From the NCBI GenBank assembly GCA_946699065.1, contig CAMPDV010002461.1:1-64000 (forward strand): DNA of 64,000 nt, written 5' to 3'. The notes under the pieces are model-generated. The model was not told where the DNA came from and did no database searches. It saw nothing but the letters and a program-made list of their open reading frames with translations. Source of the stretch: Loxodes magnus (lineage: Eukaryota > Ciliophora > Karyorelictea > Loxodida > Loxodidae). Positions 39,859 through 64,000 of the stretch are shown piece by piece (within the stretch, counting starts at the first letter, position 1; each line of letters opens with the position of its first letter). The translations under genes and the position numbers were made by a program.

Positions 39859-40081
39859 TCACTTGATGGATCTCTACTTGTCCTCCACACTCATGGCAGT
39901 ATTAGCCATTACGCAATTGTTAAATCGCAATCCATAGTCAGCATATACTTTCGTCCAGTCAGTCTATATAAATGTGGTGTGCTAAATTTGAACTTACCTG
40001 TTATTAGTTATTAGTATCTACTCCATTCAATATCCTTCCTATGTTCCATCTTCGAATGTTGTAGTCTTTTGCTTAGTTATT
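39859..40081 (-). other. Possible C-terminal continuation of the WD40 gene
   Basis: Past the TGA at 40082-40084 the same frame continues NNQAKDYNIRRWNIGRILNG, which includes the expected closing strand of blade 7. It reaches CAG followed by GTAAGT at 39997-39992. If the 16-base segment 39997-39982 (GTAAGTTCAAATTTAG) is an intron, the next frame reads 40 more residues, HTTFIQTDWTKVYADYGLRF and onward, to TGA at 39861-39859. Base composition stays gene-like until about 39870. The intron is a guess from its GT...AG ends, and an unspliced reading also looks partly coding. Confidence 0.35.
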
Positions 40082-42238
40082 TCATGCTTGTCCATTGCTC
40101 GATACCAACCAATTGTTGTCCCTTGATAATGATAAACTACCCACAGTGTCTGTATGACCCTTTAGTACACAGCTACACTATCCATTATTGATATTTCGTA
40201 TTCTTATTGTCTTGTCTCGAGATCCAGATAAAATATATTTGTTGTTGCTCGAGAATATTACCGAAGTGACATAAGAGGTGTGACCCGAAAATACCTTTGT
40301 ACATTATTATGTTCTTGAGTTCCATAAACGAATAGTTTTGTCATCCGATCCAGATATGATGTAAGTGGAATCACTAGATATAGCCACAACATTTACATCA
40401 CTAGTGTGACCACTCATGGTCTTACAGGTACCTGTCTTCACGTCCCATAGTCTCACCGTCTTATCATCACTTCCCGATACGATGAACTCTGAATCACTGG
40501 ATATAGCCACAGATGATAAAGAACTAGTGTGACCACTCATGGTCTTACAGGTACCTGTCTTGACGTCCCATAGTCTCACCGTCTTATCATTACTTCCCGA
40601 TACGATGAACTCTGAATCACTGGATATAGCCACAGATCATACAGAACTAGTGTGACCACTCATGGTCTTACAGGTACCTGTCTTGACGTCCCATAGTCTC
40701 ACCGTCTAATCTTAACTTCCCGATACGATGAACTCTGAATCACTGGATATAGCCACAGCATATACAGAACTAGTGTGACCACTCATGGTCTTACAGGTAC
40801 CTTCAGCTATGTTGTAGAGTCTTAGAGTTTTGTCAAATGATCCAGAAAGGATTAAGTTAGCATCTGAAGAGATGGCAACGGAGGTGACTGAGTTGGAGTG
40901 TCCAGTGAAAATGTGAGGGAGTTCCGATGAGATTTATGAGAGGTTAGTGTTGGATAGGTCGCAGTTAAGGAACTTAGTATTTCTGAGGTTGGTTGATGTT
41001 AAATTGGAGTTGGAGAAGTTACATGACGTGAATTTGGTGTCCGATAGATCTGAGTTTGTTAAGTCGATGTTTGAGAAGTTTTATTACGTAAAGTTGTAGT
41101 TCAAGAAGTTTAACATTGTTATAGCATTTGCAGCTGCTATTTACATTTTTGGTTGATTCTTAGAAAGATTTAAGATCTATAAAAGATTTTGTTAGTTCTT
41201 TTCTGATTTTAATTGTACTAAATCGTAAAGAATCACTTAATTTTAGCATAAGTTGATTACATTTAACGGATTGTTCAAAATGGAAGTTATGTCAATTTGC
41301 TTGCTTTGGATTTCGTTGAGGATATTCTTAAGGTTTTTAATACTTTCGATTTTGAACTCCTGAAGTGGCTATTTTGCGATTTAAGTTCCTTTTATTTTTT
41401 CTGGAACTTTAGGTTTAATTGATTTTGTAACTTGTTTTCGTTGGATTTATTTTTTTACTTCTTCTTAAGGTTGAATCACTTCTTAAGCCTGATTTTATTT
41501 GCGTTGGGTTTATTGATCTAAGAACTTTCTTATTACAACTGTGAAATCTTAACTATTTTATCTTTACTCTTCACTCATACTCATAATTTCTTACAAAACT
41601 TAAAGTGACACTTCTTAGATGATTTTGAAATTCTAACTACTGTCATTAGAATTTGACTCAATTACTTTCTTAATCTCGTTTTACAATTTTGCAAATTCTT
41701 TTACCAAGTTTTGTAAAGCATTTATACTTCGATTACACTCTTAACTAGTTACTGTCTTAATTGACTTTATCTAGTAAAACTTCACATTAATTATATTGAT
41801 TTTCTTTAGGAATCCCTCAAAATAAAATGAGCTCATCTAAAAATCTTTTAATTCTTTTTGATATTACATCGAAGTGACTTGCTACACTACTTCACTAAAT
41901 ATTTTTTGAAAATCTATACATGCATTCATGATCCCTATCATTTTGTTCTTTTAGGAACTTAGTTAACTTGATAAGTCTTTAATCAATTACTTAAAATTGA
42001 TTTGTTGTTCGAACTTATTGATTTCCTACTTAAAGTACTCTTTTATGTCGAAAATCTTTAGATTCTGCTCTTCTATATTTACTTTTATGTTGTGAATTTT
42101 GCATTTGTAAGTATTAGTTACTTTTGAAACATTTTGAATACATTTAGTACATTAAATGCAACCACAACTTATTATTTTGGGTAACCTTTGATTTTAGTCA
42201 AAGACTTTGCTACAACTCTAACAGACGGTTAAATCCAT
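40082..42238 (-). CDS. RING-type / pentapeptide-repeat / WD40 multidomain protein (ciliate code; possibly a decaying copy)
   Basis: Reading TAA/TAG as Gln, one frame of 719 codons runs from ATG 42238 to TGA 40082-40084. Residues 6-49 make a full RING-like pattern, C-x2-C-x15-C-x-C-x2-C-x2-C-x12-C-x2-H. Residues 50-370 are charged and Gln/Lys-rich, with helical, coiled-coil-like stretches. Residues 377-430 are pentapeptide repeats (for example NFSNIDLTNSDLSDTKF). From 440 on come seven WD40 blades with GH and RLWD or RLYN signatures. The RING suggests ubiquitin-ligase activity, and the propeller and pentapeptide repeats suggest target or partner binding; this is inference from the families. 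About 40 of about 60 Gln codons are TAA/TAG. The start fits because the RING begins directly after it. A TGA interrupts blade 3 (codon 534), and the final TGA falls inside blade 7, before its expected DYNIRRWNI end. The copy is therefore broken, or TGA is sometimes sense. Coding G+C is higher than in the flanks. Confidence 0.85.
40412..40780 (-). repeat. 123 bp tandem repeat encoding WD40 blades 2-4
   Basis: Blades 2, 3 and 4 occupy 40780-40658, 40657-40535 and 40534-40412. Each is exactly 123 bp (41 residues) and they are almost identical at DNA level, including synonymous positions. Differences fall mainly at the two codons after SSV/SSL (Tyr-Ala, TGA-Ser, Ser-Ser) and at the GS-x-D-x-T turn (Gln/Gln, Asn/Lys, Asp/Lys). 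Blades 1, 5, 6 and 7 are clearly more diverged. This points to recent blade duplication or ongoing exchange between blades. Confidence 0.9.
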
Positions 42239-44973
42239 TACTTATAATTAATTTAAAAAAAGTATCTCAATAAATACCATATATTACAATGAAAATAAAA
42301 TTGAAAAAGAATAAATATTAATTAAAAATAAGAATTTATCAAAATTAAATATAATTTTGATTAAAATATATTTGATAAGAAAAATAAAAAACTTGATAAC
42401 TATTAGATAAAAATATTAAACGCGAACACTAAAATTTTACAAACATAATAAAATTAAATATCATTATTCATTTCTTTAAAAAAAAATTAAAAATTTTAAA
42501 TAAAATTAAAAAAAATATATTTACATTTTTTTAAAAATTTAAATAAATTTTGAGATAAATTCAATTACAAAAACTTTTATTTTAATATAAAAAATTATTT
42601 AAAAATAAGACTATTAATGAACAAATAAAAAATAATAAAACTATTATAATAAAAATATACTTTAATCATAATTAAAATTTTTTTTTATAAATAAAAAAAC
42701 AAATCTTATATTAATTAAATACAAATTAATTTTTTATAATTTTAAAAGAATGAAAATATATAAGATATGTTATAATATAAAATTAAATTATTAAAAAAAA
42801 TCTTATTATTTCGAATTTAATAATCAAAAGTAACATTTTTTTGATTAATAAATAACGTAAATTATTAAAAAAAAATAGAATATAAAATCTTTATTCATCT
42901 GAAAAAAACTTGTATACTTAAACCTAATTTACAAAAAAAATAATTACATAAAATTTTTTATTTAATACCTGGAAATTATTCATTATCACCCAATAATGAT
43001 ATATATTATCTAAAATTAGATAGTTAAATTTATTTTTTTGAAACTTCAAATAATATTAAAATCTATAAAATATAATTTATTTAAAAAAATTAAAGAAATA
43101 AACTAAGATACAATTTGAAAAAAAAATATTCATTATATTAATGAAATTAAAACATCCTAATAAGTAAACTCAAAATGACATAATTGAAAAAAATAATAAA
43201 AAAAATTAATTAATATTAAAAGAAAAAATAAAACAAAAGATAAAAAATTATGCTAATAAATATAAAAAGGAAAATAATAAATAAAAATTTACTTAAAAAA
43301 ATGGAAAATATAAAAAAAAATTATTAAACTATAATAAAATATAAGATATTCTAAAAATAAGAAAAATAATTTAATAAGATTAAAAAAGATAAAAAAATTA
43401 AACAAAAAAAGAAAATTTAATTTAACTGAATGAAAATAAAAATTTTAATTAAAATAAGAAAAACATATAATACTAATAAAGCCATATAATAATTAATTAA
43501 AAAATATATATAATAATATTTATTAGCTTTATAAGCATTCTAAATATCTTCTTGGTAGCTTATAAAATTCTACTAAGTATGCTTTATATTTTATCTTTAA
43601 GTAATTTTCTTAATTGAATTGCTTAATTACTTTTTCAATAAAACTAAGCATAGTTATTTTATAATAAATTTAGATTTTTTTCAATTAAATCGGAATTATA
43701 AATTTCTACATTTATTACTATATCAAAATGCTATTTGAATCTATTAATATAAATTTCTCATTTTATATAGATTTTTTTTTTTTTTATTATTAAAATCCTA
43801 AAATTTAGCATAGAAATTTAGAATAATTTATTATTAAACTTATTTTAAGATATATTGGAAGAAAATATAAAAATAAGATTCATTTTATTTGGTTTTCTTA
43901 ATTATCTAATTTAACTTGCATGTTTTATTTACAACTACCATTATCAATCAATATATTTTGTTTATATACCTTATTTAAGCTACGAAACAAAGTATATGAA
44001 GATTATAATGATAATATAAAGCAGACGATATTTACTATCTGTTTTAAGATTAGCTTTCATAAGAAAATAATTAAATGCACATAGACTTAAATAAATAAAG
44101 ATAACTAAAATATAGAAATTATAAATAATCAGATTGATAAATAAATATTAAGCTTATATATGGTAGCTTAAATTAATTAAATTCATGAAGTTATATCTAT
44201 TCCTTATTTATTTTTTTATATTTTAGCTACTTTTAAATGTGATAATTTTATTATGGAAGGCTTGTGATTGGCTTAATGATTTATTTTATTTTTAAATTTT
44301 TAAAACATAATAATAATTTTTAGTTATAGATGGGAAATTTATTTATCTAAATTTATTAATACTATTTAGATAAAACTTTGATTAAATTATTTTAAAGGTT
44401 TATATTCCTGTGAGAATGATGTTATAAATATTGAAAATTAATAATAATTTAACAACTAAAATTGAAATTTCAAGATCTTTTTGAAGAATGGAAAGTAAAG
44501 AAAGTAAGAAAATAGGATCAAATAGTGAAAATATAAAGAAAATGTTTATAAGCAAGATAAAAATAGATAATTAGGTCATATTTATACTCTAAAATTTATT
44601 AGAGCTATTTGGCAGCAAATAATAAATAAAGCAAAAATTTTAATTTATTAACTTAATTTATTATTTTAAAGTTTCTTTTCGATATTACGAAAATACTTAG
44701 TAATATTTATTTTATTTTATTTCTTTATTATGCACTGATAGATATATGCTTCGCTATTAAATTAACGTTTCGATATTAAAGTAAAAAAAGATCCTTAATA
44801 TTACAATTTAATTATCTATCAAGCAATTTAATATTTTAATTTAATAATAGAGTTAATTTTCAAATAATTTCAATTATTCTTTTATTATTTAAAGTAACTC
44901 TTTTAATAGCTTACGTAGTTATTTAAAATTACTCCAAACCATATAAGTTCACTTTGGTACTTAACATGTATAA
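42239..44973. other. AT-rich intergenic region, no supportable gene
   Basis: Extremely AT-rich sequence with long A and T runs. The stretch 43080-43480 is purine(A)-rich on the plus strand. A frame lacking TGA runs from ATG 44489 up to the next gene, but its length is not unusual for DNA this poor in G and C, and the product shows no recognisable feature. Confidence 0.55.
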
Positions 44974-45739
44974 ATGAAAATTTCCTTCTTACTGATATTG
45001 GCTATTATAGGCTTTTCTCAAAGTCACATAATAGATAAGTTCTTTATGGAAAAGTAAAGCTATACTCAAGAAAGACTTAGTACCAAATCTATGAGAGATA
45101 CAAATGGAAATGTTTATGAAGTAGGGTATTCATAAATTAGTTCTAATAATTAAGATTGCTGAATTAGGAAATAGATAGATAATGAGTTGAACTGTACAAA
45201 ACTTTCTTAGATTCAAGCCCAGCTGATTGTAGAGGTTTAAAATTGACTTTAGACAGCAATGATAGACCATATAAAGCGTTTTCGATTGATGGAGGCTCAT
45301 ATGATGCAGGATATATCACCAAAAAATCAGTTATGATTGGTACTTTTTCAGGATCTATTTTTGATAGTTTAGGTTCAGGAGGAGGTCCTAAAGTTTCAGT
45401 TCTAGCAGGATTAAGAACTGATAACGGATTTATCGAAAAAGCTACATTTTTAATAGCGTTACTTTCTACAGGAAAAGCGAATTCGTACTTAGTTTAAGAA
45501 ATAATTTTCTGTACAGATTAAGTTTCAGTTCACTCTTAGATTTGGTATAAATCTTTCGATAAAAATTCTTCAAATAATAAATTCATAGTTATCCAGAAGC
45601 AGGCTTGATAAAAGTAAGTATGGAAGGATTTTTCAGACATTATATTCATTTAGACAGAAATATGACGATAATTACATAGGGTTTAGTTAAAGATCCTTTA
45701 ACATGTTCAATTTTCTTTTAGGTAGAAGTTAGGCAATGA
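44974..45739 (+). CDS. Putative secreted protein of unknown family, three exons (ciliate code)
   Basis: Proposed exons are 44974-45139, 45187-45544 and 45589-45739, joining to 675 bases (224 residues) and ending in TGA at 45737. The product starts with a clear signal peptide, MKISFLLILAIIGFSQS, and then a soluble chain with DSSPADCRGLKL, FSIDGGSYDAGYITKK and GSIFDSLGSGGGPKVSVLAG. The last exon gives YPEAGLIKVSMEGFFRHYIH. Several Gln codons are TAA/TAG. There is no membrane segment after the signal, so secretion or entry into the endomembrane lumen is inferred. An ATG nine bases upstream (44965) is followed at once by TGA, which supports the chosen start. Each of the three parts reads well in a different frame, and GT...AG introns of 47 and 44 bases connect them. 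Frameshift decay is the alternative. I do not recognise the family. Confidence 0.65.
45140..45186 (+). other. Probable intron 1 of the secreted-protein gene
   Basis: It joins frame 1 (ending NGNVYEVGYSQ) to frame 3 (ELYKTFLDSSPADCRG) and removes the TGA codons present in both frames (45160 and 45183). The 5' end GTTCTA is weak and the 3' end is AATGAG. An alternative acceptor at 45210 (CTTTCTTAG) also keeps the frame, and donors at 45080 or 45054 are possible. The intron is well motivated but its exact ends are uncertain. Confidence 0.45.
45545..45588 (+). other. Probable intron 2 of the secreted-protein gene (44 bp)
   Basis: It starts GTATAAAT and ends TTCATAG. Its removal joins VSVHSQI to YPEAGLIKV through a Cys codon made from TG plus T. 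Without splicing the frame ends in TGA 19 codons later. The intron is AT-rich, and 44 bases is a short length of the kind found in ciliates. Confidence 0.65.
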
Positions 45740-48700
45740 ACTTAATTTGCTTTAATTAAATCCTATCTTTTAAGTAAAAATTTAAATAAAAGCTCAAGTT
45801 AATAATTAAATATTTCTTAAGGAATATAATTTAAATTTAAAGATTTGCTAAATCTCTATATATCTTAAGTATTTGTACTCTTTGGTTTATTTGTAAAATA
45901 ATTATTCATTTGATATATTTAATTTATATATTAGTGTCAAAATAACCTTAACTTAATAATAATTATGCTAGTAGCCTTCATCTTAATAATCTATATCTAT
46001 TATGATTAAACTAATAGTATAAAAGTATTAGCCTTAATTATTCTTAGTATAATATCTTTATATTTTAATTAAGGAAATAATGCAAAGGTAAGTAGGATTT
46101 GTTTTAATATTGCTAGTATGGTACTTTGGTATAATTAACAAGCTTCTTTAGTTACTACCTTTAATTCCTAAGAAAGATAGTAGTATTTAATTTATTGCTG
46201 ACTATAATTAGATTTAAGTAATAAATAGTATAATATAACTAGCTTTGGAAATAGATAATAAAAATAAAGCTTAATATCTATTTAATATTATAACTACTAA
46301 TTTAATAGTGTCTACCTAATTTCTAAAATTAGTGCTTACATTGATATTAGAATCAAGAGCTTGTGCTTATAAGATAGTAAATAGTTATAAGTTAAGTTTT
46401 AAAGATTCTAATAAATAGAATAATGAAATGATTTATTGAATATACTTGCATTTATATTCAGTTCTTAGAGTTATATTATATACATTTATCTAATTTACTA
46501 TTAATTACTCTAATCTACTTCTAAAGCTAATTCTATCATTATATAAAGCAGATATCTAAACTATTTAGATATTATTAGTTATTATATACAATGCTACTTA
46601 TAATTGCCTATAATTCATAGAGCTATCTAATATTATCTAACCTTTAGAAACTACTACCTATTTACTTAATTGCTTCATTTTTATTTAGAATGTAATTCAA
46701 TTCTTTTAAGCATGTATCTCATTAAGAAAATCTACTCTTTACATTTATTTAAGAATTTTAAGTTTAAAAGAGGGAAATTAAAAATATCAAGCTATAATAC
46801 AATTAGGATCATCCTATTAAGATAAAAATTAGAGAATAGCTAAACTTAATTCTAGAATCTAATGACTCTTATATTTTATCCTTTTAGCCTTAAATAGACA
46901 AAAAGTATATTTAACTATGCATTATATTATAATCTATAAAGCAAAATAATAATTTAAAAGATTTAAATTAATAAATTATAGCAATAGGAATAAACAAGCT
47001 TTAAGATTTATTATAAATTAACTAAGAAAATTAAGAAATTATTATATTTTATAAAATATAAAATAGTCAATCAACTAAAGCTAGAGTTATGAATTATTAT
47101 ATATTAGTGTCTACTTCATTAGGTCTTTTACTAAATTATATTTAATTCTAAGCATATATCATTTTAAGCTTTAAACATCTCTTTAATTAATATTTTGATT
47201 CATCATTCTTTGCAAATAACTTTGAAGCATTTTTAATTAGAAGATATTAATAATCTATTTGCAAATATTTTATACCTAAAGCAGAATCTAATCTAGATTT
47301 AAATAAATTAGATATTAGTGCTTTTTTTTATTGTATTCAAATTCAAAACTATGTAGATAAGACAACAATCTTTCCAAATATTTGGTAAATAAAAGATATA
47401 TATAAAGTTAACTATTTTTTAGAGGTATTTTATAAGTGAATAGAGATATTTCACCCCCAAATTCTTAGAATAATATACATTTTTAAATTACTATTTAATC
47501 TTATAATTTTTTATTCTCATCACTTTATTCACTTTAATTTTAAGAAAGAGGTATATAACGCCTAGTTTTCTTTAAATTATATCTAAAAGTTAAATCATTT
47601 ATTTAAAATATGACAACAAAAGATTTATTAATCATTTATAGTTATGTTTGCAATATATTTATTTTAACTTTAATTTAAATGAAAATCATAATAAATTAGA
47701 AGAAGAAATAAGCATTTAATAGATGGTACAAATAAATAGGAATATAAAGATTTTAGATGATAAATTATTAGGTAATATTAACTAATAGATTAAAGAATAG
47801 TATTATATATTTATTCCCATGAAACACATATATAAATAGACCTAATTTTTACTAATATTTTAATTATTTAAAATATTAGTAATTATATACCAATAACCAG
47901 AATATTTAATTAAATCATATTTAAAAAAATAATTTAAATTTAAATTTTATAATTTAGATTTAACTTAAATAAAAGATAAGACATGATCAAATTAGTTGAA
48001 ATAAATATTAATGAATCTTATAATAGATATTTTATGAATAACTTATAAAGATTATTAAATAAAAGTATTTCCTATATTTTAAAATTAATGTAAGGTATCT
48101 GAGTTTTCATTGAAAAAATTAAAGTTAAAATTTTAAATAAAATTAATGAAATGTTTCAGATACATTGAAATTATATCTTTCATAATAGCATTTTTACTTT
48201 AAGAATAAAAATCATTTTTTCTTAATAAAAAGAAGCTATAAAATTGCTTAATCTATTTTCTATAGCTTAAAATGTAAAAATAATCTTTATTTTTTAAATA
48301 AAAACAATTTATAATAAACATCTGGTTTAAATTAATGATATGGTGGTTATCTCTTTTTTAATATAAACTTTTTGTAATAAGATAAAGCACTTCATCTGTT
48401 TATAACTCTTTTACAAAAAATAGAATTTATAAATGATATGCTTAATTAAATAAATTTATTTCTAAATCTTAATCAATAGAATTATCATTATAAGGTACAT
48501 TGATAACTTTGATAGACTTTGAAACTAAAATTAGATAAAACTAAGAAAAATCTATAATTATAGATAAAATTTAAATTAATAAAATCTTAAATATAACTAG
48601 CAAGCATTGTCTAATAATTTGTAAATGAAAGAGATATTTATCTCATAAAGTTAACGAATAGAAATATATAATTATTATTTTTTATTTACAATATAACTAA

Positions 48701-49875: not shown

Positions 49876-49941
49876 GACAGTGTGACCGAGTGGTCTAAGG
49901 CGCTAGTCTTTTGGGGCGTGGGTTAAAATCCCACCGCTGTC
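49876..49941 (+). pseudogene. Truncated class II tRNA (Leu/Ser-type) pseudogene
   Basis: The acceptor halves GACAGTG and CGCTGTC pair over 7 bp (one G-T pair). The D-arm has the Leu/Ser-like ACCGAGTGGTCTAAGGC, and a T-arm stem GTGGG/CCCAC closes the loop TTAAAAT. The gene is only 66 bases, whereas Leu and Ser tRNAs are usually 80-90. After CTAGTC TTTT the sequence jumps to GGGGCG, so the 3' half of the anticodon stem and the variable arm are missing. The A-C pair in the D stem and the loop TTAAAAT instead of TTCAAAT are further decay. No anticodon can be assigned with confidence. Confidence 0.75.
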
Positions 49942-49942
49942 A

Positions 49943-52307: not shown

Positions 52308-55300
52308 GATTAGACTTAAATGTAATTTTAAGTAATTTTAAAATCAGTTATACTTAAATTTAATTTTAAGTAATTTTAAATCAGTTAGACTTAAATTTAA
52401 TTTTAAGTAATTTTAAAATCAGTTAGACTTAAATTTAATTTTAAGTAATTTTAAATCAGTTAGACTTAAATTTAATTTTAAGTAATTTTAAATCAGTTAG
52501 ACTTAAATTTAATTTTAAGTAATTTTAAAATCAGTTATACTTAAATTTAATTTTAAGTAATTTTAAAAAGTTATACTTAAATTTAATTTTAAGTAATTTT
52601 AAATCAGTTAGACTTAAATTTAATTTTAAGTAATTTTAAATCAGTTAGACTTAAATTTAATTTTAAGTAATTTTAAATCAGTTAGACTTAAATTTAATTT
52701 TAAGTAATTTTAAATCAGTTAGACTTAAATTTAATTTTAAGTAATTTTAAATCAGTTAGACTTAAATTTAATTTTAAGTAATTTTAAATCAGTTAGACTT
52801 AAATTTAATTTTAAGTAATTTTAAATCAGTTAGACTTAAATTTAATTTTAAGTAATTTTAAATCAGTTAGACTTAAATTCAATTTTAAGTAATTTTAAAT
52901 CATTTAGACTTAAATTTAATTTTAAGTAATTTTAAAATCAGTTAGACTTATATTTAATTTTAAGTAATTTTAAAATCAGTTAGACTTAAATTTAATTTTA
53001 AGTAATTTTAAAATCAGTTAGACTTAAATTTAATTTTAAGTAATTTTAAATCAGTTAGACTTAAATTTAATTTTAAGTAATTTTAAATCAGTTAGACTTA
53101 AATTTAATTTTAAGTAATTTTAAAATCAGTTAGACTTAAATTTAATTTTAAGTAATTTTAAAATAGTTAGACTTAAATTTAATTTTAAGTAATTTTAAAT
53201 CAGTTAGACTTAAATTTAATTTTAAGTAATTTTAAAATAGTTAGACTTAAATTTAATTTTAAGTAATTTTAAATCAGTTAGACTTAAATTTAATTTTAAG
53301 TAATTTTAAATCAGTTAGACTTAAATTTAATTTTAAGTAATTTTAAAATAGTTAGACTTATATTTAATTTTAAGTAATTTTAAATCAGTTAGACTTAAAT
53401 TTAATTTTAAGTAATTTTAAAATCAGTTAGACTTAAATTTAATTTTAAGTAATTTTAAATCAGTTATACTTAAATTTAATTTTAAGTAATTTTAAAATAG
53501 TTAGACTTAAATTTAATTTTAAGTAATTTTAAATCAGTTAGACTTAAATTTAATTTTAAGTAATTTTAAATCAGTTAGACTTAAATTTAATTTTAAGTAA
53601 TTTTAAAATCAGTTAGACTTAAATTTAATTTTAAGTAATTTTAAATCAGTTAGACTTAAATTTTAAGTAATTTTAAGTAGACTTAAATTTAAAAGTCAGT
53701 TAGACTTAAATTCAATTTTAAGTAATTTTAAAATCAGTTAGACTTAAATTTAATTTTAAGTAATTTTAAAATAGTTAGACTTAAATTTAATTTTAAGTAA
53801 TTTTAAAATAGTTAGACTTAAATTTAATTTTAAGTAATTTTAAATCAGTTAGACTTAAATTTAATTTTAAGTAATTTTAAATCAGTTAGACTTAAATTTA
53901 ATTTTAAGTAATTTTAAATCAGTTAGACTTAAATTTAATTTTAAGTAATTTTAAATCAGTTAGACTTAAATTTAATTTTAAGTAATTTTAAAATCAGTTA
54001 GACTTAAATTTAATTTTAAGTATGTTTAAATCAGTTAGACTTAAATTTAATTTTAAGTAATTTTAAAATCAGTTAGACTTAAATTCAATTTTAAGTAATT
54101 TTAAAATCAGTTAGACTTAAATTCAATTTTAAGTAATTTTAAAATCAGTTAGACTTAAATTTAATTTTAAGTAATTTTAAAATCAGTTAGACTTAAATTT
54201 AATTTTAAGTAATTTTAAAATCAGTTAGACTTAAATTTAATTTTAAGTAATTTTAAAATCAGTTAGACTTAAATTTAATTTTAAGTAATTTTAAATCAGT
54301 TAGACTTAAATTTAATTTTAAGTAATTTTAAATCAGTTAGACTTAAATTTAATTTTAAGTAATTTTAAAATCAGTTAGACTTAAATTTAATTTTAAGTAA
54401 TTTTAAAATCAGTTAGACTTAAATTTAATTTTAAGTAATTTTAAAATCAGTTAGACTTAAATTTAATTTTAAGTAATTTTAAAATCAGTTAGACTTTAAT
54501 TTAATTTTAAGTAATTTTAAATCAGTTAGACTTAAATTTAATTTTAAGTAATTTTAAATCAGTTAGACTTAAATTTAATTTTAAGTAATTTTAAATCAGT
54601 TAGACTTAAATTTAATTTTAAGTAATTTTAAAATCAGTTAGACTTAAATTTAATTTTAAGTATGTTTAAATCAGTTAGACTTAAATTTAATTTTAAGTAA
54701 TTTTAAAATCAGTTAGACTTAAATTTAATTTTAAGTAATTTTAAAATCAGTTAGACTTAAATTTAATTTTAAGTAATTTTAAATCAGTTAGACTTAAATT
54801 TAATTTTAAGTAATTTTAAAATCAGTTAGACTTAAATTTAATTTTAAGTAATTTTAAATCAGTTAGACTTAAATTTAATTTTAAGTAATTTTAAAATCAG
54901 TTAGACTTAAATTTAATTTTAAGTAATTTTAAATCAGTTAGACTTAAATTTAATTTTAAGTAATTTTAAAATCAGTTAGACTTTAATTTAATTTTAAGTA
55001 ATTTTAAATCAGTTAGACTTAAATTCAATTTTAAGTAATTTTAAAATCAGTTAGACTTAAATTTAATTTTAAGTAATTTTAAAATCAGTTAGACTTAAAT
55101 TTAATTTTAAGTATGTTTAAATCAGTTAGACTTAAATTTAATTTTAAGTAATTTTAAAATCAGTTAGACTTAAATTTAATTTTAAGTAATTTTAAAATCA
55201 GTTAGACTTAAATTTAATTTTAAGTAATTTTAAATCAGTTAGACTTAAATTTAATTTTAAGTAATTTTAAATCAGTTAGACTTAAATTTAATTTTAAGTA

Positions 55301-58300
55301 ATTTTAAATCAGTTAGACTTAAATTTAATTTTAAGTAATTTTAAAATCAGTTAGACTTTAATTTAATTTTAAGTAATTTTAAATCAGTTAGACTTAAATT
55401 TAATTTTAAGTAATTTTAAAATCAGTTAGACTTAAATTTAATTTTAAGTAATTTTAAAATAGTTAGACTTAAATTTAATTTTAAGTAATTTTAAAATCAG
55501 TTAGACTTAAATTTAATTTTAAGTAATTTTAAAATCAGTTAGACTTAAATTTAATTTTAAGTATGTAAGTAAGTATGTTTAAATCAGTTAGACTTAAATT
55601 TAATTTTAAGTAATTTTAAAATCAGTTAGACTTTAATTTAATTTTAAGTAATTTTAAATCAGTTAGACTTAAATTTAATTTTAAGTAATTTTAAAATCAG
55701 TTAGACTTAAATTTAATTTTAAGTAATTTTAAATCAGTTAGACTTAAATTTAATTTTAAGTAATTTTAAAATCAGTTAGACTTAAATTTAATTTTAAGTA
55801 ATTTTAAAATCAGTTAGACTTAAATTTAATTTTAAGTAATTTTAAAATCAGTTAGACTTAAATTTAATTTTAAGTAATTTTAAATCAGTTAGACTTAAAT
55901 TTAATTTTAAGTAATTTTAAAATCAGTTAGACTTAAATTTAATTTTAAGTAATTTTAAAATCAGTTAGACTTAAATTTAATTTTAAGTAATTTTAAAATC
56001 AGTTAGACTTAAATTTAATTTTAAGTAATTTTAAATCAGTTAGACTTAAATTTAATTTTAAGTAATTTTAAAATCAGTTAGACTTAAATTTAATTTTAAG
56101 TAATTTTAAAATAGTTAGACTTAAATTTAATTTTAAGTAATTTTAAAATCAGTTAGACTTAAATTTAATTTTAAGTAATTTTAAAATCAGTTAGACTTAA
56201 ATTTAATTTTAAGTAATTTTAAAATAGTTAGACTTAAATTTAATTTTAAGTAATTTTAAAATCAGTTAGACTTAAATTTAATTTTAAGTAATTTTAAATC
56301 AGTTAGACTTAAATTTAATTTTAAGTAATTTTAAAATCAGTTAGACTTAAATTCAATTTTAAGTAATTTTAAATCAGTTAGACTTAAATTTAATTTTAAG
56401 TAATTTTAAAATCAGTTAGACTTAAATTTAATTTTAAGTAATTTTAAATCAGTTAGACTTAAATTCAATTTTAAGTAATTTTAAAATCAGTTATACTTAA
56501 ATTTAATTTTAAGTAATTTTAAAATCAGTTAGACTTAAATTCAATTTTAAGTAATTTTAAAATCAGTTATACTTAAATTTAATTTTAAGTAATTTTAAAA
56601 TCAGTTAGACTTAAATTCAATTTTAAGTAATTTTAAAATCAGTTATACTTAAATTTAATTTTAAGTAATTTTAAAATCAGTTAGACTTAAATTTAATTTT
56701 AAGTAATTTTAAAATCAGTTAGACTTTAATTTAATTTTAAGTAATTTTAAATCAGTTAGACTTAAATTTAATTTTAAGTAATTTTAAAATCAGTTAGACT
56801 TAAATTCAATTTTAAGTAATTTTAAAATCAGTTAGACTTAAATTTAATTTTAAGTAATTTTAAAATCAGTTAGACTTAAATTTAATTTTAAGTAATTTTA
56901 AATCAGTTAGACTTAAATTTAATTTTAAGTAATTTTAAAATCAGTTAGACTTAAATTCAATTTTAAGTAATTTTAAAATCAGTTAGACTTAAATTTAATT
57001 TTAAGTAATTTTAAAATCAGTTAGACTTAAATTCAATTTTAAGTAATTTTAAAATCAGTTAGACTTAAATTTAATTTTAAGTAATTTTAAAATCAGTTAG
57101 ACTTAAATTTAATTTTAAGTAATTTTAAATCAGTTAGACTTAAATTTAATTTTAAGTAATTTTAAAATCAGTTAGACTTAAATTTAATTTTAAGTAATTT
57201 TAAAATCAGTTAGACTTTAATTTAATTTTAAGTAATTTTAAATCAGTTAGACTTAAATTTAATTTTAAGTAATTTTAAAATCAGTTAGACTTAAATTTAA
57301 TTTTAAGTAATTTTAAATCAGTTAGACTTAAATTTAATTTTAAGTATGTTTAAATCAGTTAGACTTAAATTTAATTTTAAGTAATTTTAAAATCAGTTAG
57401 ACTTAAATTTAATTTTAAGTAATTTTAAATCAGTTAGACTTAAATTTAATTTTAAGTAATTTTAAAATCAGTTAGACTTAAATTTAATTTTAAGTAATTT
57501 TAAATCAGTTAGACTTAAATTTAATTTTAAGTATGTTTAAATCAGTTAGACTTAAATTTAATTTTAAGTAATTTTAAAATCAGTTAGACTTAAATTCAAT
57601 TTTAAGTAATTTTAAATCAGTTAGACTTAAATTTAATTTTAAGTAATTTTAAATCAGTTAGACTTAAATTTAATTTTAAGTAATTTTAAATCAGTTAGAC
57701 TTAAATTTAATTTTAAGTAATTTTAAATCAGTTAGACTTAAATTTAATTTTAAGTATGTTTAAATCAGTTAGACTTAAATTTAATTTTAAGTAATTTTAA
57801 AATCAGTTAGACTTAAATTTAATTTTAAGTAATTTTAAAATCAGTTAGACTTAAATTTAATTTTAAGTAATTTTAAAATCAGTTAGACTTAAATTTAATT
57901 TTAAGTAATTTTAAAATCAGTTAGACTTAAATTTAATTTTAAGTAATTTTAAATCAGTTAGACTTAAATTTAATTTTAAGTAATTTTAAATCAGTTAGAC
58001 TTAAATTTAATTTTAAGTAATTTTAAAATCAGTTAGACTTAAATTTAATTTCAAGTAATTTTAAATCAGTTAGACTTAAATTTAATTTTAAGTAATTTTA
58101 AATCAGTTAGACTTAAATTTAATTTTAAGTAATTTTAAATCAGTTATACTTAAATTTAATTTTAAGTATGTTTAAATCAGTTAGACTTTAATTTAATTTT
58201 AAGTAATTTTAAAATCAGTTAGACTTAAATTTAATTTTAAGTAATTTTAAATCAGTTAGACTTAAATTTAATTTTAAGTATTTTTAAATCTGTTAGACTT

Positions 58301-61300
58301 AAATTTAATTTTAAGTAGGTTTTAAATCAGTTAGACTTAAATTTAATTTTAAGTAATTTTAAAATAGTTAGACTTATATTTAATTTTAAGTAATTTTAAA
58401 TAGTTAGACTTAAATTTAATTTTAAGTAATTTTAAATCAGTTAGACTTAAATTTAATTTTAAGTAATTTTAAATCAGTTAGACTTAAATTCAATTTTAAG
58501 TAATTTTAAAATCAGTTAGACTTTAATTTAATTTTAAGTAATTTTAAATCAGTTAGACTTAAATTTAATTTTAAGTAATTTTAAAATAGTTAGACTTAAA
58601 TTTAATTTTAAGTAATTTTAAAATCAGTTAGACTTAAATTTAATTTTAAGTAATTTTAAAATCAGTTAGACTTAAATTTAATTTTAAGTAATTTTAAATC
58701 AGTTAGACTTTAATTTAATTTTAAGTAATTTTAAATCAGTTAGACTAAAATTTAATTTTAAGTAATTTTAAAATCAGTTAGACTTAAATTCAATTTTAAG
58801 TAATTTTAAAATCAGTTAGACTTAAATTTAATTTTAAGTAATTTTAAAATCAGTTAGACTTAAATTCAATTTTAAGTAATTTTAAAATCAGTTAGACTTA
58901 AATTTAATTTTAAGTAATTTTAAAATCAGTTAGACTTAAATTTAATTTTAAGTAATTTTAAAATCAGTTAGACTTAAATTTAATTTTAAGTAATTTTAAA
59001 ATCAGTTAGACTTAAATTTAATTTTAAGTAATTTTAAATCAGTTAGACTTAAATTTAATTTTAAGTAATTTTAAAATCAGTTAGACTTAAATTCAATTTT
59101 AAGTAATTTTAAAATCAGTTAGACTTAAATTTAATTTTAAGTAATTTTAAAATCAGTTAGACTTAAATTTAATTTTAAGTAATTTTAAAATCAGTTAGAC
59201 TTAAATTTAATTTTAAGTAATTTTAAAATCAGTTAGACTTAAATTTAATTTTAAGTAATTTTAAATCAGTTAGACTTAAATTTAATTTTAAGTAATTTTA
59301 AAATCAGTTAGACTCAGTTAGACTTTAATTTAATTTTAAGTAATTTTAAAATCAGTTAGACTTAAATTTAATTTTAAGTAATTTTAAATAGTTAGACTTA
59401 AATTTAATTTTAAGTAATTTTAAAATAGTTAGACTTAAATTTAATTTTAAGTAATTTTAAAATCAGTTAGACTTAAATTCAATTTTAAGTAATTTTAAAA
59501 TCAGTTAGACTTAAATTTAATTTTAAGTAATTTTAAAATCAGTTAGACTTAAATTTAATTTTAAGTAATTTTAAAATCAGTTAGACTTAAATTTAATTTT
59601 AAGTAATTTTAAAATCTTAAATTTAATTTTAAGTAATTTTAAAATAGTTAGACTTAAATTTAATTTTAAGTAATTTTAAATCAGTTAGACTTAAATTTAA
59701 TTTTAAGTAATTTTAAAATCAGTTAGACTTAAATTTAATTTTAAGTAATTTTAATCAGTTAGACTTAAATTTAATTTTAAGTAATTTTAAAATCAGTTAG
59801 ACTTAAATTTAATTTTAAGTAATTTTAAAATCAGTTAGACTTAAATTCAATTTTAAGTAATTTTAAATCAGTTAGACTTAAATTTAATTTTAAGTAATTT
59901 TAAAATCAGTTAGACTTAAATTCAATTTTAAGTAATTTTAAATCAGTTAGACTTAAATTTAATTTTAAGTAATTTTAAAATCAGTTATACTTAAATTTAA
60001 TTTTAAGTAATTTTAAAATCAGTTAGACTTAAATTCAATTTTAAGTAATTTTAAAATCAGTTAGACTTAAATTTAATTTTAAGTAATTTTAAAATCAGTT
60101 AGACTTAAATTTAATTTTAAGTAATTTTAAAATCAGTTAGACTTAAATTTAATTTTAAGTAATTTTAAAATCAGTTAGACTTAAATTTAATTTTAAGTAA
60201 TTTTAAAATCAGTTAGACTTAAATTTAATTTTAAGTAATTTTAAAATAGTTAGACTTAAATTTAATTTTAAGTAATTTTAAAATCAGTTAGACTTAAATT
60301 TAATTTTAAGTAATTTTAAAATCAGTTAGACTTAAATTTAATTTTAAGTAATTTTAAAATCAGTTAGACTTAAATTTAATTTTAAGTAATTTAAAATCAG
60401 TTAGACTTAAATTTAATTTTAAGTAATTTAAAATCAGTTAGACTTAAATTTAATTTTAAGTATGTTTAAATCAGTTAGACTTAAATTTAATTTTAAGTAA
60501 TTTTAAAATCAGTTAGACTTAAATTTAATTTTAAGTAATTTTAAATCAGTTAGACTTAAATTTAATTTTAAGTATGTTTAAATCAGTTAGACTTAAATTT
60601 AATTTTAAGTAATTTTAAAATCAGTTAGACTTAAATTCAATTTTAAGTAATTTTAAATCAGTTAGACTTAAATTTAATTTTAAGTAATTTTAAAATCAGT
60701 TAGACTTAAATTTAATTTTAAGTAATTTTAAATCAGTTAGACTTAAATTTAATTTTAAGTAATTTTAAAATCAGTTAGACTTAAATTTAATTTTAAGTAT
60801 GTTTAAATCAGTTAGACTTAAATTTAATTTTAAGTAATTTTAAAATCAGTTAGACTTTAATTTAATTTTAAGTAATTTTAAAATCAGTTAGACTTAAATT
60901 TAATTTTAAGTAATTTTAAAATCAGTTAGACTTAAATTTAATTTTAAGTAATTTTAAAATCAGTTAGACTTAAATTTAATTTTAAGTAATTTTAAATCAG
61001 TTAGACTTTAATTTAATTTTAAGTAATTTTAAATCAGTTAGACTTTAATTTAATTTTAAGTAATTTTAAAATCAGTTAGACTTAAATTTAATTTTAAGTA
61101 ATTTTAATCAGTTAGACTTAAATTTAATTTTAAGTAATTTTAAAATAGTTAGACTTAAATTTAATTTTAAGTAATTTTAAAATCAGTTAGACTTAAATTT
61201 AATTTTAAGTAATTTTAAATCAGTTAGACTTAAATTTAATTTTAAGTAATTTTAAAATCAGTTAGACTTAAATTTAATTTTAAGTAATTTTAAATCAGTT

Positions 61301-64000
61301 AGACTTAAATTTAATTTTAAGTAATTTTAAATCAAGACTTAAATTTAATTTTAAGTAATTTTAAATCAGTTAGACTTAAATTTAATTTTAAGTAATTTTA
61401 AATCAGTTAGACTTTAATTTAATTTTAAGTAATTTTAAATCAGTTAGACTTAAATTTAATTTTAAGTAATTTTAAAATCAGTTAGACTTAAATTTAATTT
61501 TAAGTAATTTTAAAAGTTAGTTAGACTTAAATTTAATTTTAAGTAATTTTAAAATCAGTTAGACTTAAATTTAATTTTAAGTAATTTTAAAATCAGTTAG
61601 ACTTAAATTTAATTTTAAGTAATTTTAAATCAGTTAGACTTAAATTTAATTTTAAGTAATTTTAAAATCAGTTAGACTTAAATTTAATTTTAAGTAATTT
61701 TAAAATCAGTTAGACTTAAATTTAATTTTAAGTAATTTTAAAATCAGTTAGACTTAAATTTAATTTTAAGTAATTTTAAAATCAGTTAGACTTTAATTTA
61801 ATTTTAAGTAATTTTAAATCAGTTAGACTTAAATTTAATTTTAAGTAATTTTAAATCAGTTAGACTTAAATTTAATTTTAAGTAATTTTAAAATCAGTTA
61901 GACTTAAATTTAATTTTAAGTAATTTTAAATCAGTTAGACTTAAATTTAATTTTAAGTAATTTTAAATCAGTTAGACTTAAATTTAATTTTAAGTAATTT
62001 TAAAATCAGTTAGACTTAAATTTAATTTTAAGTAATTTTAAATCAGTTAGACTTAAATTTAATTTTAAGTAATTTTAAATCAGTTAGACTTAAATTTAAT
62101 TTTAAGTAATTTTAAATCAGTTAGACTTAAATTTAATTTTAAGTAATTTTAAATCAGTTAGACTTAAATTTAATTTTAAGTAATTTTAAAATCAGTTAGA
62201 CTTAAATTTAATTTTAAGTAATTTTAAAATCAGTTAGACTTTAATTTAATTTTAAGTAATTTTAAAATCAGTTAGACTTAAATTTAATTTTAAGTAATTT
62301 TAAAATCAGTTAGACTTAAATTTAATTTTAAGTAATTTTAAAATCAGTTAGACTTTAATTTAATTTTAAGTAATTTTAAATCAGTTAGACTTAAATTTAA
62401 TTTTAAGTAATTTTAAATCAGTTAGACTTAAATTTAATTTTAAGTAATTTTAAAATCAGTTAGACTTAAATTTAATTTTAAGTAATTTTAAATCAGTTAG
62501 ACTTAAATTTAATTTTAAGTAATTTTAAATCAGTTAGACTTAAATTTAATTTTAAGTAATTTTAAAATCAGTTAGACTTAAATTTAATTTTAAGTAATTT
62601 TAAATCAGTTAGACTTAAATTTAATTTTAAGTAATTTTAAATCAGTTAGACTTAAATTTAATTTTAAGTAATTTTAAATCAGTTAGACTTAAATTTAATT
62701 TTAAGTAATTTTAAATCAGTTAGACTTAAATTTAATTTTAAGTAATTTTAAAATCAGTTAGACTTAAATTTAATTTTAAGTAATTTTAAAATCAGTTAGA
62801 CTTTAATTTAATTTTAAGTAATTTTAAATCAGTTAGACTTAAATTTAATTTTAAGTAATTTTAAATCAGTTAGACTTAAATTTAATTTTAAGTAATTTTA
62901 AAATCAGTTAGACTTAAATTTAATTTTAAGTAATTTTAAATCAGTTAGACTTAAATTTAATTTTAAGTAATTTTAAAATCAGTTAGACTTAAATTCAATT
63001 TTAAGTAATTTTAAAATCAGTTATACTTAAATTTAATTTTAAGTAATTTTAAAATCAGTTAGACTTAAATTTAATTTTAAGTAATTTTAAAATCAGTTAG
63101 ACTTTAATTTAATTTTAAGTAATTTTAAATCAGTTAGACTTAAATTTAATTTTAAGTAATTTTAAAATCAGTTAGACTTAAATTCAATTTTAAGTATTTT
63201 AAATCAGTTAGACTTAAATTTAATTTTAAGTAATTTTAAAATCAGTTAGACTTAAATTTAATTTTAAGTAATTTTAAAATCAGTTAGACTTAAATTTAAT
63301 TTTAAGTAATTTTAAATCAGTTAGACTTAAATTTAATTTTAAGTAATTTTAAATCAGTTAGACTTAAATTTAATTTTAAGTAATTTTAAAATCAGTTAGA
63401 CTTAAATTTAATTTTAAGTAATTTTAAATCAGTTAGACTTAAATTCAATTTTAAGTAATTTTAAAATCAGTTAGACTTAAATTTAATTTTAAGTAATTTT
63501 AAAATCAGTTAGACTTAAATTTAATTTTAAGTAATTTTAAATCAGTTAGACTTAAATTTAATTTTAAGTAATTTTAAAATCAGTTAGACTTTAATTTAAT
63601 TTTAAGTAATTTTAAATCAGTTAGACTTAAATTTAATTTTAAGTAATTTTAAAATCAGTTAGACTTAAATTTAATTTTAAGTAATTTTAAAATCAGTTAG
63701 ACTTAAATTTAATTTTAAGTAATTTTAAAATCAGTTAGACTTAAATTTAATTTTAAGTAATTTTAAAATCAGTTAGACTTAAATTTAATTTTAAGTAATT
63801 TTAAAATAGTTAGACTTAAATTTAATTTTAAGTAGGTTTTATATCAGTTAGACTTAAATTTAATTTTAAGTATGTTTAAATCAGTTAGACTTAAATTTAA
63901 TTTTAAGTAATTTTAAATCAGTTAGACTTAAATTTAATTTTAAGTAATTTTAAAATCAGTTAGACTTAAATTCAATTTTAAGTAATTTTAAAATCAGTTA
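52308..64000 (+). repeat. SatC: 37/38 bp satellite array, about 310 copies, runs off the window
   Basis: Uniform head-to-tail copies of a unit made of AGTTAGACTTAAATTTAA, TTTTAAGTAATTTTAA and AATC or ATC. Two common lengths differ by one A before TC (38 versus 37 bp). Common variants are CTTAAATTCAATT, CTTTAATTT, GTTATACTT, AAAATAG (no C) and AGTATGTTTAAATC. The unit holds a 7 bp inverted repeat, ACTTAAA...TTTAAGT with a 6-base loop, and an internal direct repeat of TAATTTTAA. It is about 87% A+T. Copies are very alike, so the array is homogenised. No spacers and no coding potential are present. Confidence 0.98.
53630..53720 (+). repeat. Rearranged SatC copies
   Basis: Here the regular unit is scrambled: TTAGACTTAAATTTTAAG lacks the central TTTAA, and is followed by TAGACTTAAATTTAAAAGTC. 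Other irregular copies lie near 55560 (AGTATGTAAGTAAGTATG), 59310 (partial doubling of CAGTTAGACT), 59613 (missing AGTTAGAC) and 61335 (missing GTT). They look like slippage or exchange scars within the array. Confidence 0.7.

Follow-up and report, generated by a model that had tools for sequence, protein, structure and literature searches.

Animals, plants and fungi are known to possess large and diversified repertoires for recognition. The described systems closest to the gene studied here are the NWD/HNWD receptors of the fungus Podospora anserina (HET-D, HET-E and HET-R), which carry near-identical WD40 repeats that are exchanged within and between genes (PMC12222747, PMC1805685). According to PMC1805685, codons 7, 9, 25 and 27 of the Podospora NWD repeat are under strong positive selection and codons 8 and 26 under strong purifying selection; on the top face of the propeller, the d-a loop contains the pair 7/9 and the b-c turn the pair 25/27. 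PMC12222747 gives seven positions of high dN/dS in a different numbering. By the rule set out in PMC3419727, positions 7, 9 and 25 of the Loxodes blade fit R1-2, R1 and D-1, which are general top-face binding residues. Among ciliates, the young LRR genes of Tetrahymena are, like the family described here, a large and fast-evolving repeat family; they are enriched near chromosome ends and lie near centromeres as well, and their authors liken the LRR domain compositions to those of plant immunity genes (PMC6564038). However, the Tetrahymena family consists of LRR repeats in 90-bp exons, and the sections of PMC6564038 consulted report for it neither a RING-pentapeptide-WD40 order nor per-blade hot spots.

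The best reading of the gene presented here, from the ciliate Loxodes magnus, is that it belongs to a family which is convergent with the fungal NWD receptors and is neither TRIM nor NLR. No description of a RING-pentapeptide-WD40 family was seen among the open-licence papers listed for WD40, pentapeptide, RING and nonself recognition in ciliates and protists, and the terms 'WD40' and 'gene famil' are absent from the main text of the genome paper (PMC11441545). The macronuclear assembly of this species has been described as 706 Mbp in length with plentiful tandem repeats, and translation table 27 was assigned to it, in which TAA and TAG stand for Gln, and TGA stands for Trp or, near the mRNA end, for stop (PMC11441545). 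All genome searches were carried out on one assembly of 705,730,643 bases in 7,843 contigs. The gene lies in the window, that is, the whole stretch of DNA analysed, comprising bases 1-64,000 of contig C2461 (66,752 bases). Its features are the following:

39998..42238, minus strand: exon 1, residues 1-747, with TAA and TAG read as Gln and TGA as Trp
42092..42223, minus strand: RING-type zinc motif, residues 6-49, C-x2-C-x15-C-x-C-x2-C-x2-C-x12-C-x2-H (ligand invariance, TRIM32 profile match, Foldseek)
41099..42013, minus strand: predicted helical middle, residues 76-380 (long AlphaFold helices, pLDDT mostly below 60)
40934..41107, minus strand: pentapeptide repeats, residues ~378-435 (PF00805, PF13599, PDB chains)
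39998..40909, minus strand: seven-bladed WD40 propeller from residue 444, with the tail to the intron (PF00400, AlphaFold, Foldseek)
40368..40802, minus strand: near-identical blade DNA as a tandem repeat, period 123, 3.5 copies, 94% matches
40637..40639, minus strand: in-frame TGA, read as Trp534, at hypervariable position 9 of blade 3 (from the position-9 Trp codons of the collected blades)
40082..40084, minus strand: in-frame TGA, read as Trp719, inside blade 7 and not the gene end (from comparison with other copies)
39964..39997, minus strand: intron of 34 nt, GTAAGT...TAG, with the donor at 39997 (donor in 57 of 65 distinct copies)
39859..39963, minus strand: exon 2, 34 residues and a TGA stop, TDWTKVYADYGLRFNNCVMANTAMSVEDKQRSIK, kept across copies

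The protein encoded by the window gene has 781 amino acids (747 + 34). The first-pass annotation had recognized a RING, a helical middle, pentapeptide repeats and a WD40 propeller in one protein, and this order is real, all parts lying in a single minus-strand frame with the helical part seen in a low-confidence model. The same annotation had taken 40082..42238 as a frame open under code 6, which does not hold, since under that code the window-gene frame terminates at the TGA at 40639-40637, in blade 3. As for the gene limits, the start at 42238 stands but the end does not, because the TGA at 40082 falls in blade 7 and the frame reaches the donor at 39997. Trp codons at position 9 were TGA in 30 of 30 cases among 236 collected blades, and the framework Trp at position 32 was TGG in 235 of the 236. 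Near the 40084-40082 site, other copies have TGG (loci L017 and L019, for example) or TGA (loci L013 and L015, for example), and the similarity continues past it. The use of code 6 throughout was thus ruled out by the in-frame TGA codons at Trp sites together with the table 27 of the genome paper (PMC11441545).

The start Met is homologous in all 70 fetched loci of the window-gene type (L009-L078); comparison of their first 1300 nt leaves 65 distinct ones, including the window gene. In 57 of these 65 distinct copies exon 1 ends at a GTAAGT donor, which is in phase in 50 and out of phase in 7. Exon 1 measures 2238-2256 nt in 47 of the 50 in-phase copies, is about one blade shorter in two (2118 and 2133 nt) and one blade longer in one (2370 nt). 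With an acceptor pattern anchored on exon-2 DNA, the acceptor was located in 54 of the 57 donor copies, the removed piece being of 27-38 nt; this family intron is therefore long relative to the usual ones of the genome, 93% of which are of 25 bp or less (PMC11441545). Intron lengths fall into all three modulo-3 classes (26, 23 and 5 of the 54 copies), yet the homologous exon-2 peptide is in the same frame in 54 of 54, exon 1 also being in phase in 47 of them, which indicates that the intron is spliced. The possibility, raised at first reading, that the middle region joins two separate genes was ruled out as well: the same parts follow in the same order and in one continuous frame in 42 copies aligned over exon 1 and in three distant ones that were read through, so the window gene is not two genes joined.

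The pentapeptide region matches PF00805 at E 4.1e-12 (45.9 bits against a cut-off of 20.2) with tandem A(D/N)LXX-type repeats; PF13599 matches at E 2e-7, under its own cut-off, and pentapeptide-type PDB chains match from E 8.9e-8. For the C-terminal part, PF00400 identified seven WD40 stretches (E 9e-74) and the AlphaFold model shows seven blades with pLDDT mostly above 90, in agreement with the seven-bladed propeller proposed initially. A Foldseek match of the propeller, 5yzv, gave a TM-score of 0.94 by target length and of 0.37 by query length, the latter being low because only the propeller aligns.

At the N-terminus, the zinc ligands are C6, C9, C25, C27, C30, C33, C46 and H49. The cross-brace RING spacing, the Cys at ligand 4 and the His at ligand 8 were all confirmed as first annotated, and none of the eight ligands varies among the 65 distinct copies. 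Of the three Pfam domains that had been expected, pentapeptide and WD40 were well matched, but the RING of the window gene as a single sequence scored under every Pfam cut-off and no better than FYVE or DUF832. When 38 copies were aligned and tested against Pfam, zf-RING_UBOX and zf-C3HC4_4 matched 38 of 38 at E up to 1 (best 1.4e-4), FYVE matched 31 and DUF832 24, the window sequence scoring similarly for both of the latter. When the profile of the 38 copies was compared with the PDB, RNF4 came first at 1.5e-4 as the sum of several weak stretches, and the TRIM32 RING was matched at E 2.1e-4 in a single stretch. The AlphaFold model of the RING is weak (mean pLDDT 62.5); with it, the eight best Foldseek rows were RING-type E3s, none of them at E below 0.001, and the TRIM32 RING ranked first (probability 0.96, E 0.17). 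As judged from ligand invariance, profiles and models, the N-terminal domain is likely homologous to RING and may act as a ubiquitin ligase. Many active RINGs have a hydrophobic residue between the first two Cys. Among the 65 copies this residue is instead S, K, F, R or N, so that E2 binding may be lost. After the RING, two segment forms were observed (EINN or QLNK at residues ~71-75, diverging onward) behind near-identical RINGs, for instance in L043 and L010, and this suggests that N-terminal modules would also be shuffled among genes.

The first-pass annotation had compared the layout with that of TRIM-like E3 ligases, and the resemblance is loose. Like TRIM32, the Loxodes protein has an N-terminal RING, with the profile match at E 2.1e-4, a predicted helical middle and a C-terminal binding domain. 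However, no B-box appeared among the 8 Pfam families matched at E up to 5 by residues 1-442, the C-terminus is made of pentapeptide repeats and WD40 blades, and ligands 4 and 8 are Cys and His. Membership of TRIM (RBCC) was rejected because the B-box is missing. Neither a NACHT nor a HET domain was found among the same 8 families for residues 1-442 or among the best 25 of 43 rows for the longer protein, and membership of the fungal NWD/HNWD NLR group was rejected because NACHT is missing.

The window gene is one of many. When residues 1-451 were used as query, the best 94 of 3,665 candidates were scored, of which 93 cover at least residues 1-446 and one covers 1-422. Queries with two divergent members gave at least 150 places each, and the union of the three N-terminal lists comprises at least 166 places, partial ones included, distributed over 153 contigs. 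The two lists of 150 rows have 139 rows in common, which suggests that the first RING type is nearly exhausted. Three loci among the most distant of this type (L079-L081) were read through and show the whole architecture with variable blades. A query with the 34-residue exon 2 gave a best 150 of 983 candidates, 37 of which fall at the 166 places. Four other exon-2 places (L082-L085) were opened, and they have the same module of pentapeptide repeats, variable WD40 blades and exon 2 behind other RING-type N-termini, with the Cys-4/His-8 pattern in L082, L083 and L085 and the usual His at ligand 4 in L084. The reading frame of L085 shifts ahead of the last blades, and that of L082 seems to shift within blade 7. 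Searching with the second N-terminus added at least 150 places, none of them at the first 166; 40 of the exon-2 places lie at second N-terminus places and 73 at neither N-terminal set. In all, the union from five genome searches amounts to at least 389 distinct places, some of which could be alleles, fragments or broken copies, or could come from duplicated contigs. A calculation from 166 x 150/37, which assumes that the exon-2 list is unbiased, suggests a family of about 670 places.

These places are not spread evenly over the contigs. Contig sizes are known for 70 places, and 32 of these are on contigs of 150 kb or more. Of the 32, 20 lie within 50 kb of a contig end, when 8.7 were expected and 0 of 20,000 simulations reached 20, and the other 12 lie more than 50 kb from it. 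Among 21 places within 60 kb of a contig end, 19 are transcribed toward that end. The exon-2 places gave the same picture: 67 of the best 150 are on contigs C1-C560 (sizes partly interpolated), 46 of them lie no more than 50 kb from an end, when 12.7 would be expected, and 44 of these 46 point outward. Without use of the sizes, the exon-2 places on C1-C560 are 31 minus and 0 plus in the first 75 kb, and 10 minus and 26 plus in the remainder. For the second N-terminus, 82 of the best 150 places are on C1-C1000, and the first 40 kb contains 32 on the minus strand and 1 on the plus strand. Moreover, contigs C32, C103, C139, C228, C630 and C917 have both a minus place in the first 40 kb and a plus place beyond 100 kb.

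The window gene itself lies between two satellite arrays, one of 80 bp at window positions 42-37037 (465 copies, 91% matches), which extends to the contig start and toward which the gene is transcribed, and one of 38 bp at 52310-64000 (311 copies, 95% matches). A genome search with the satellite unit gave no match, an outcome that carries no weight in the case of common repeats. Telomeres could not be found in the Loxodes genome according to PMC11441545, and four CCCTAA units in a row had 0 exact matches in the genome searched. Since contig ends may be breaks at satellites and not chromosome ends, the subtelomeric position of many family genes is something that we infer. Two other elements were seen in the vicinity of the gene. 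Rfam reports a tRNA gene at 49876-49942 of the window, plus strand (37.7 bits), ARAGORN reporting none, and at ~44970-45750, plus strand, a frame starting with the signal-peptide-like MKISFLLILAIIGFSQSH meets an in-frame TGA and is possibly another gene; this stretch has a higher GC content than its surroundings.

The WD40 blades show concerted evolution with DIVERSIFYING sites. In each 41-codon blade, codons 6, 7, 9, 25 and 27 are hypervariable, and the framework of the middle blades is nearly frozen. The selection figures were obtained on the nearest kin of the window gene, namely 65 distinct places out of at least 389 in one genome, and the pN/pS values given below come from simple counting with no recombination model; those for the regions of the gene are medians of pairwise values over 42 aligned genes. 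The regions before the propeller are under purifying selection, with pN/pS of 0.39 for the RING and helical residues 1-260 (median pS 0.505), 0.28 for residues 261-380 (0.525) and 0.23 for the pentapeptide region (0.647). In blades 2-4, the framework has a median pS of 0.082 and pN/pS of 0.41, and the five variable codons have a median pS of 0.171 and pN/pS of 3.03. In blades 1, 5 and 6 the framework has a median pS of 0.322 and pN/pS of 0.24, and the contrast is weaker, the variable codons giving 1.32; blade 7 has a median pS of 0.384 and pN/pS of 0.40. Because framework pS is lowest in blades 2-4, homogenisation is strongest there. In 170 distinct middle blades, pN and pS were 0.496 and 0.185 at the variable codons and 0.036 and 0.073 at the framework, and 5 of the 41 codons take 64% of the replacement differences; when all 217 distinct collected blades are counted, the pN/pS of these codons falls to 1.95 and their share of the differences to 40%. 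An excess is also present at position 10 (2.6-3.0), where A or S usually stands.

The five positions were first chosen by eye from the same data, and a blade was collected if it matched a consensus at 26 or more of its 41 positions, a rule that favours a constant framework. The seven loci outside this choice (L079-L085) gave 24 blades by the same consensus rule, and among these the highest entropies are again those of positions 25, 9, 27, 7 and 6. The 236 blades contain 201 distinct five-residue signatures. Framework differences are 0.0453 within a gene and 0.0465 between genes (222 of 500 permutations were as low), and identical whole blades make up 16 of 279 pairs within a gene versus 8 of 17,299 between genes. 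The equal framework differences and the commoner identity within genes indicate an exchange that looks family-wide, with some recent local duplication. Related giant WD40 arrays on other contigs may act as blade donors. Contigs C1503 (L001-L008), C119, C9, C272, C620, C1832 and C6957 have many WD40 matches spaced in 126-bp multiples, as in very long arrays, among the best 150 of 98,897 candidates; in 40 distinct units of C1503, variability is highest at positions 25 and 9, and the six most variable positions also include 7 and 27.

The nature of the changes at the variable codons was also considered. Two-fold pyrimidine codons end in T in 538 and in C in 6 cases at the variable sites, and in 3,799 and 3,193 cases, respectively, at N-terminal codons, these codons being non-independent. 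At position 6, 227 of 236 blades have T as the third base, and at position 25 this base is T or A in 235 of 236, bases 1 and 2 being the ones that vary; base 2 is the most variable at positions 7 and 9, and bases 1 and 3 at position 27. A local mutation hot spot accounts for this codon pattern less well than amino-acid selection acting on a pool with few origins. A diversity-generating retroelement, in which change is adenine-directed, was set aside by argument, as framework codons containing A, such as that of D26 (GAT/GAC), hardly vary.

It could be proposed that the family consists mostly of decaying duplicates at contig ends, spread with repeats and homogenised like minisatellites, in which the variable codons are a functionless mutation hot spot. 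The location of the window gene between two satellite arrays, the 7 of 57 donor copies that are out of phase and the frames that look broken in two of the four opened loci of other types (L082 in blade 7 and L085 before the last blades) agree with such decay. However, it does not account for zinc ligands kept in 65 of 65 copies, for N-terminal pN/pS values of 0.23-0.39, for an exon-2 frame kept across introns of all modulo-3 classes or for the restricted third bases at positions 6 and 25. In addition, a mutation hot spot would not select the published binding positions, and for these reasons we consider decay improbable.

Comparison of the Loxodes blade with the Podospora repeat bears directly on those positions. 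The Loxodes layout is M1 S2 G3 H4 T5 x6 x7 V8 x9 ... S24 x25 D26 x27, V8 being kept in 97% and D26 in 98% of the 236 blades. According to DSSP of the model (blade 2), strand a begins at position 9 and is preceded by positions 6 and 7, and the b-c turn contains positions 25 and 27. Thus codons 7, 9, 25 and 27 diversify on the top face in both organisms, as far as PMC1805685 describes them, this match consisting of position numbers and of structural places taken from text. Position 6 is variable in Loxodes in addition to the Podospora set described there. The two systems differ in other respects: the Loxodes protein has a RING and pentapeptide repeats, with no NACHT or HET seen in the Pfam scans; it has seven blades versus usually eleven repeats in Podospora; and there are at least 389 Loxodes places versus the ten Podospora genes reported (PMC1805685). 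The propeller fold reflects common ancestry, and the matching diversification on a different scaffold would most simply be convergence.

The first-pass annotation had mentioned a recognition receptor as one possible nature of this protein, a suggestion which the large paralog family with its diversifying propeller face supports. We therefore favour, with a probability of about 0.62, a RING-based recognition repertoire in which the WD40 propeller is the sensor and the RING the output, with a likely role in defence or in self/non-self recognition. The propeller would sense through five diversified top-face residues per blade held on a fixed blade framework, so that different genes would offer different binding surfaces. 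Diversity would arise by point changes at the five codons, retained by diversifying selection, and also by exchange of blades among genes through recombination or conversion, which the proximity of many genes to contig ends would perhaps favour. Output would fall to the RING-type N-terminus, which would most likely recruit ubiquitin-conjugating enzymes to the target of the propeller, and the helical part and pentapeptide repeats may serve for spacing or multimerising the protein. The family would likely act in defence against intracellular intruders or in self/non-self recognition; the ligand class, the immune role and the transfer of ubiquitin are predictions.

An origin of the family as substrate adaptors for the cell's own proteins was also weighed, that is, a burst of RING ligases having one endogenous target each and being free of any arms race. 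The combination of RING and propeller is what would be expected of a ligase carrying a domain for substrate binding, purifying selection acts on the N-terminus, and large ligase-adaptor families such as F-box and MATH-BTB exist. Nevertheless, fixed targets predict pockets conserved by group, and the 201 signatures in 236 blades do not follow this expectation; in addition, the low framework pS across the family points to blade exchange. Such adaptors are accordingly regarded as unlikely. Within the favoured recognition repertoire, the role could be specifically that of mating or fusion recognition, as for HET-D and HET-E, and not defence. The variation at codons 7, 9, 25 and 27, as in the allorecognition genes of Podospora (PMC1805685), is in line with this proposal, but hundreds of dispersed places contrast with a ten-member family, and we see this specific role as quite unlikely.

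Little is known of how ciliates and other single-celled predators recognise intruders or one another. The Loxodes family provides a concrete recognition candidate, having hundreds of places, a defined binding face and a putative output domain. This candidate has a residue-level match to an experimentally established fungal system, and so the convergence of WD40-based recognition becomes testable. The outward orientation of many copies close to contig ends may also make them useful for locating the chromosome ends of Loxodes. The fuller proposal, which we put forward tentatively and at slightly less than even odds, is that of a germline repertoire of several hundred RING receptors, many of them near chromosome ends and with propeller faces diversified at residues that the allorecognition NLRs of fungi also use, which would have reached the NWD solution independently and would be coupled to ubiquitin instead of being switched by NACHT. 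If true, this would be an immune-type receptor system in a ciliate, a single-celled organism.
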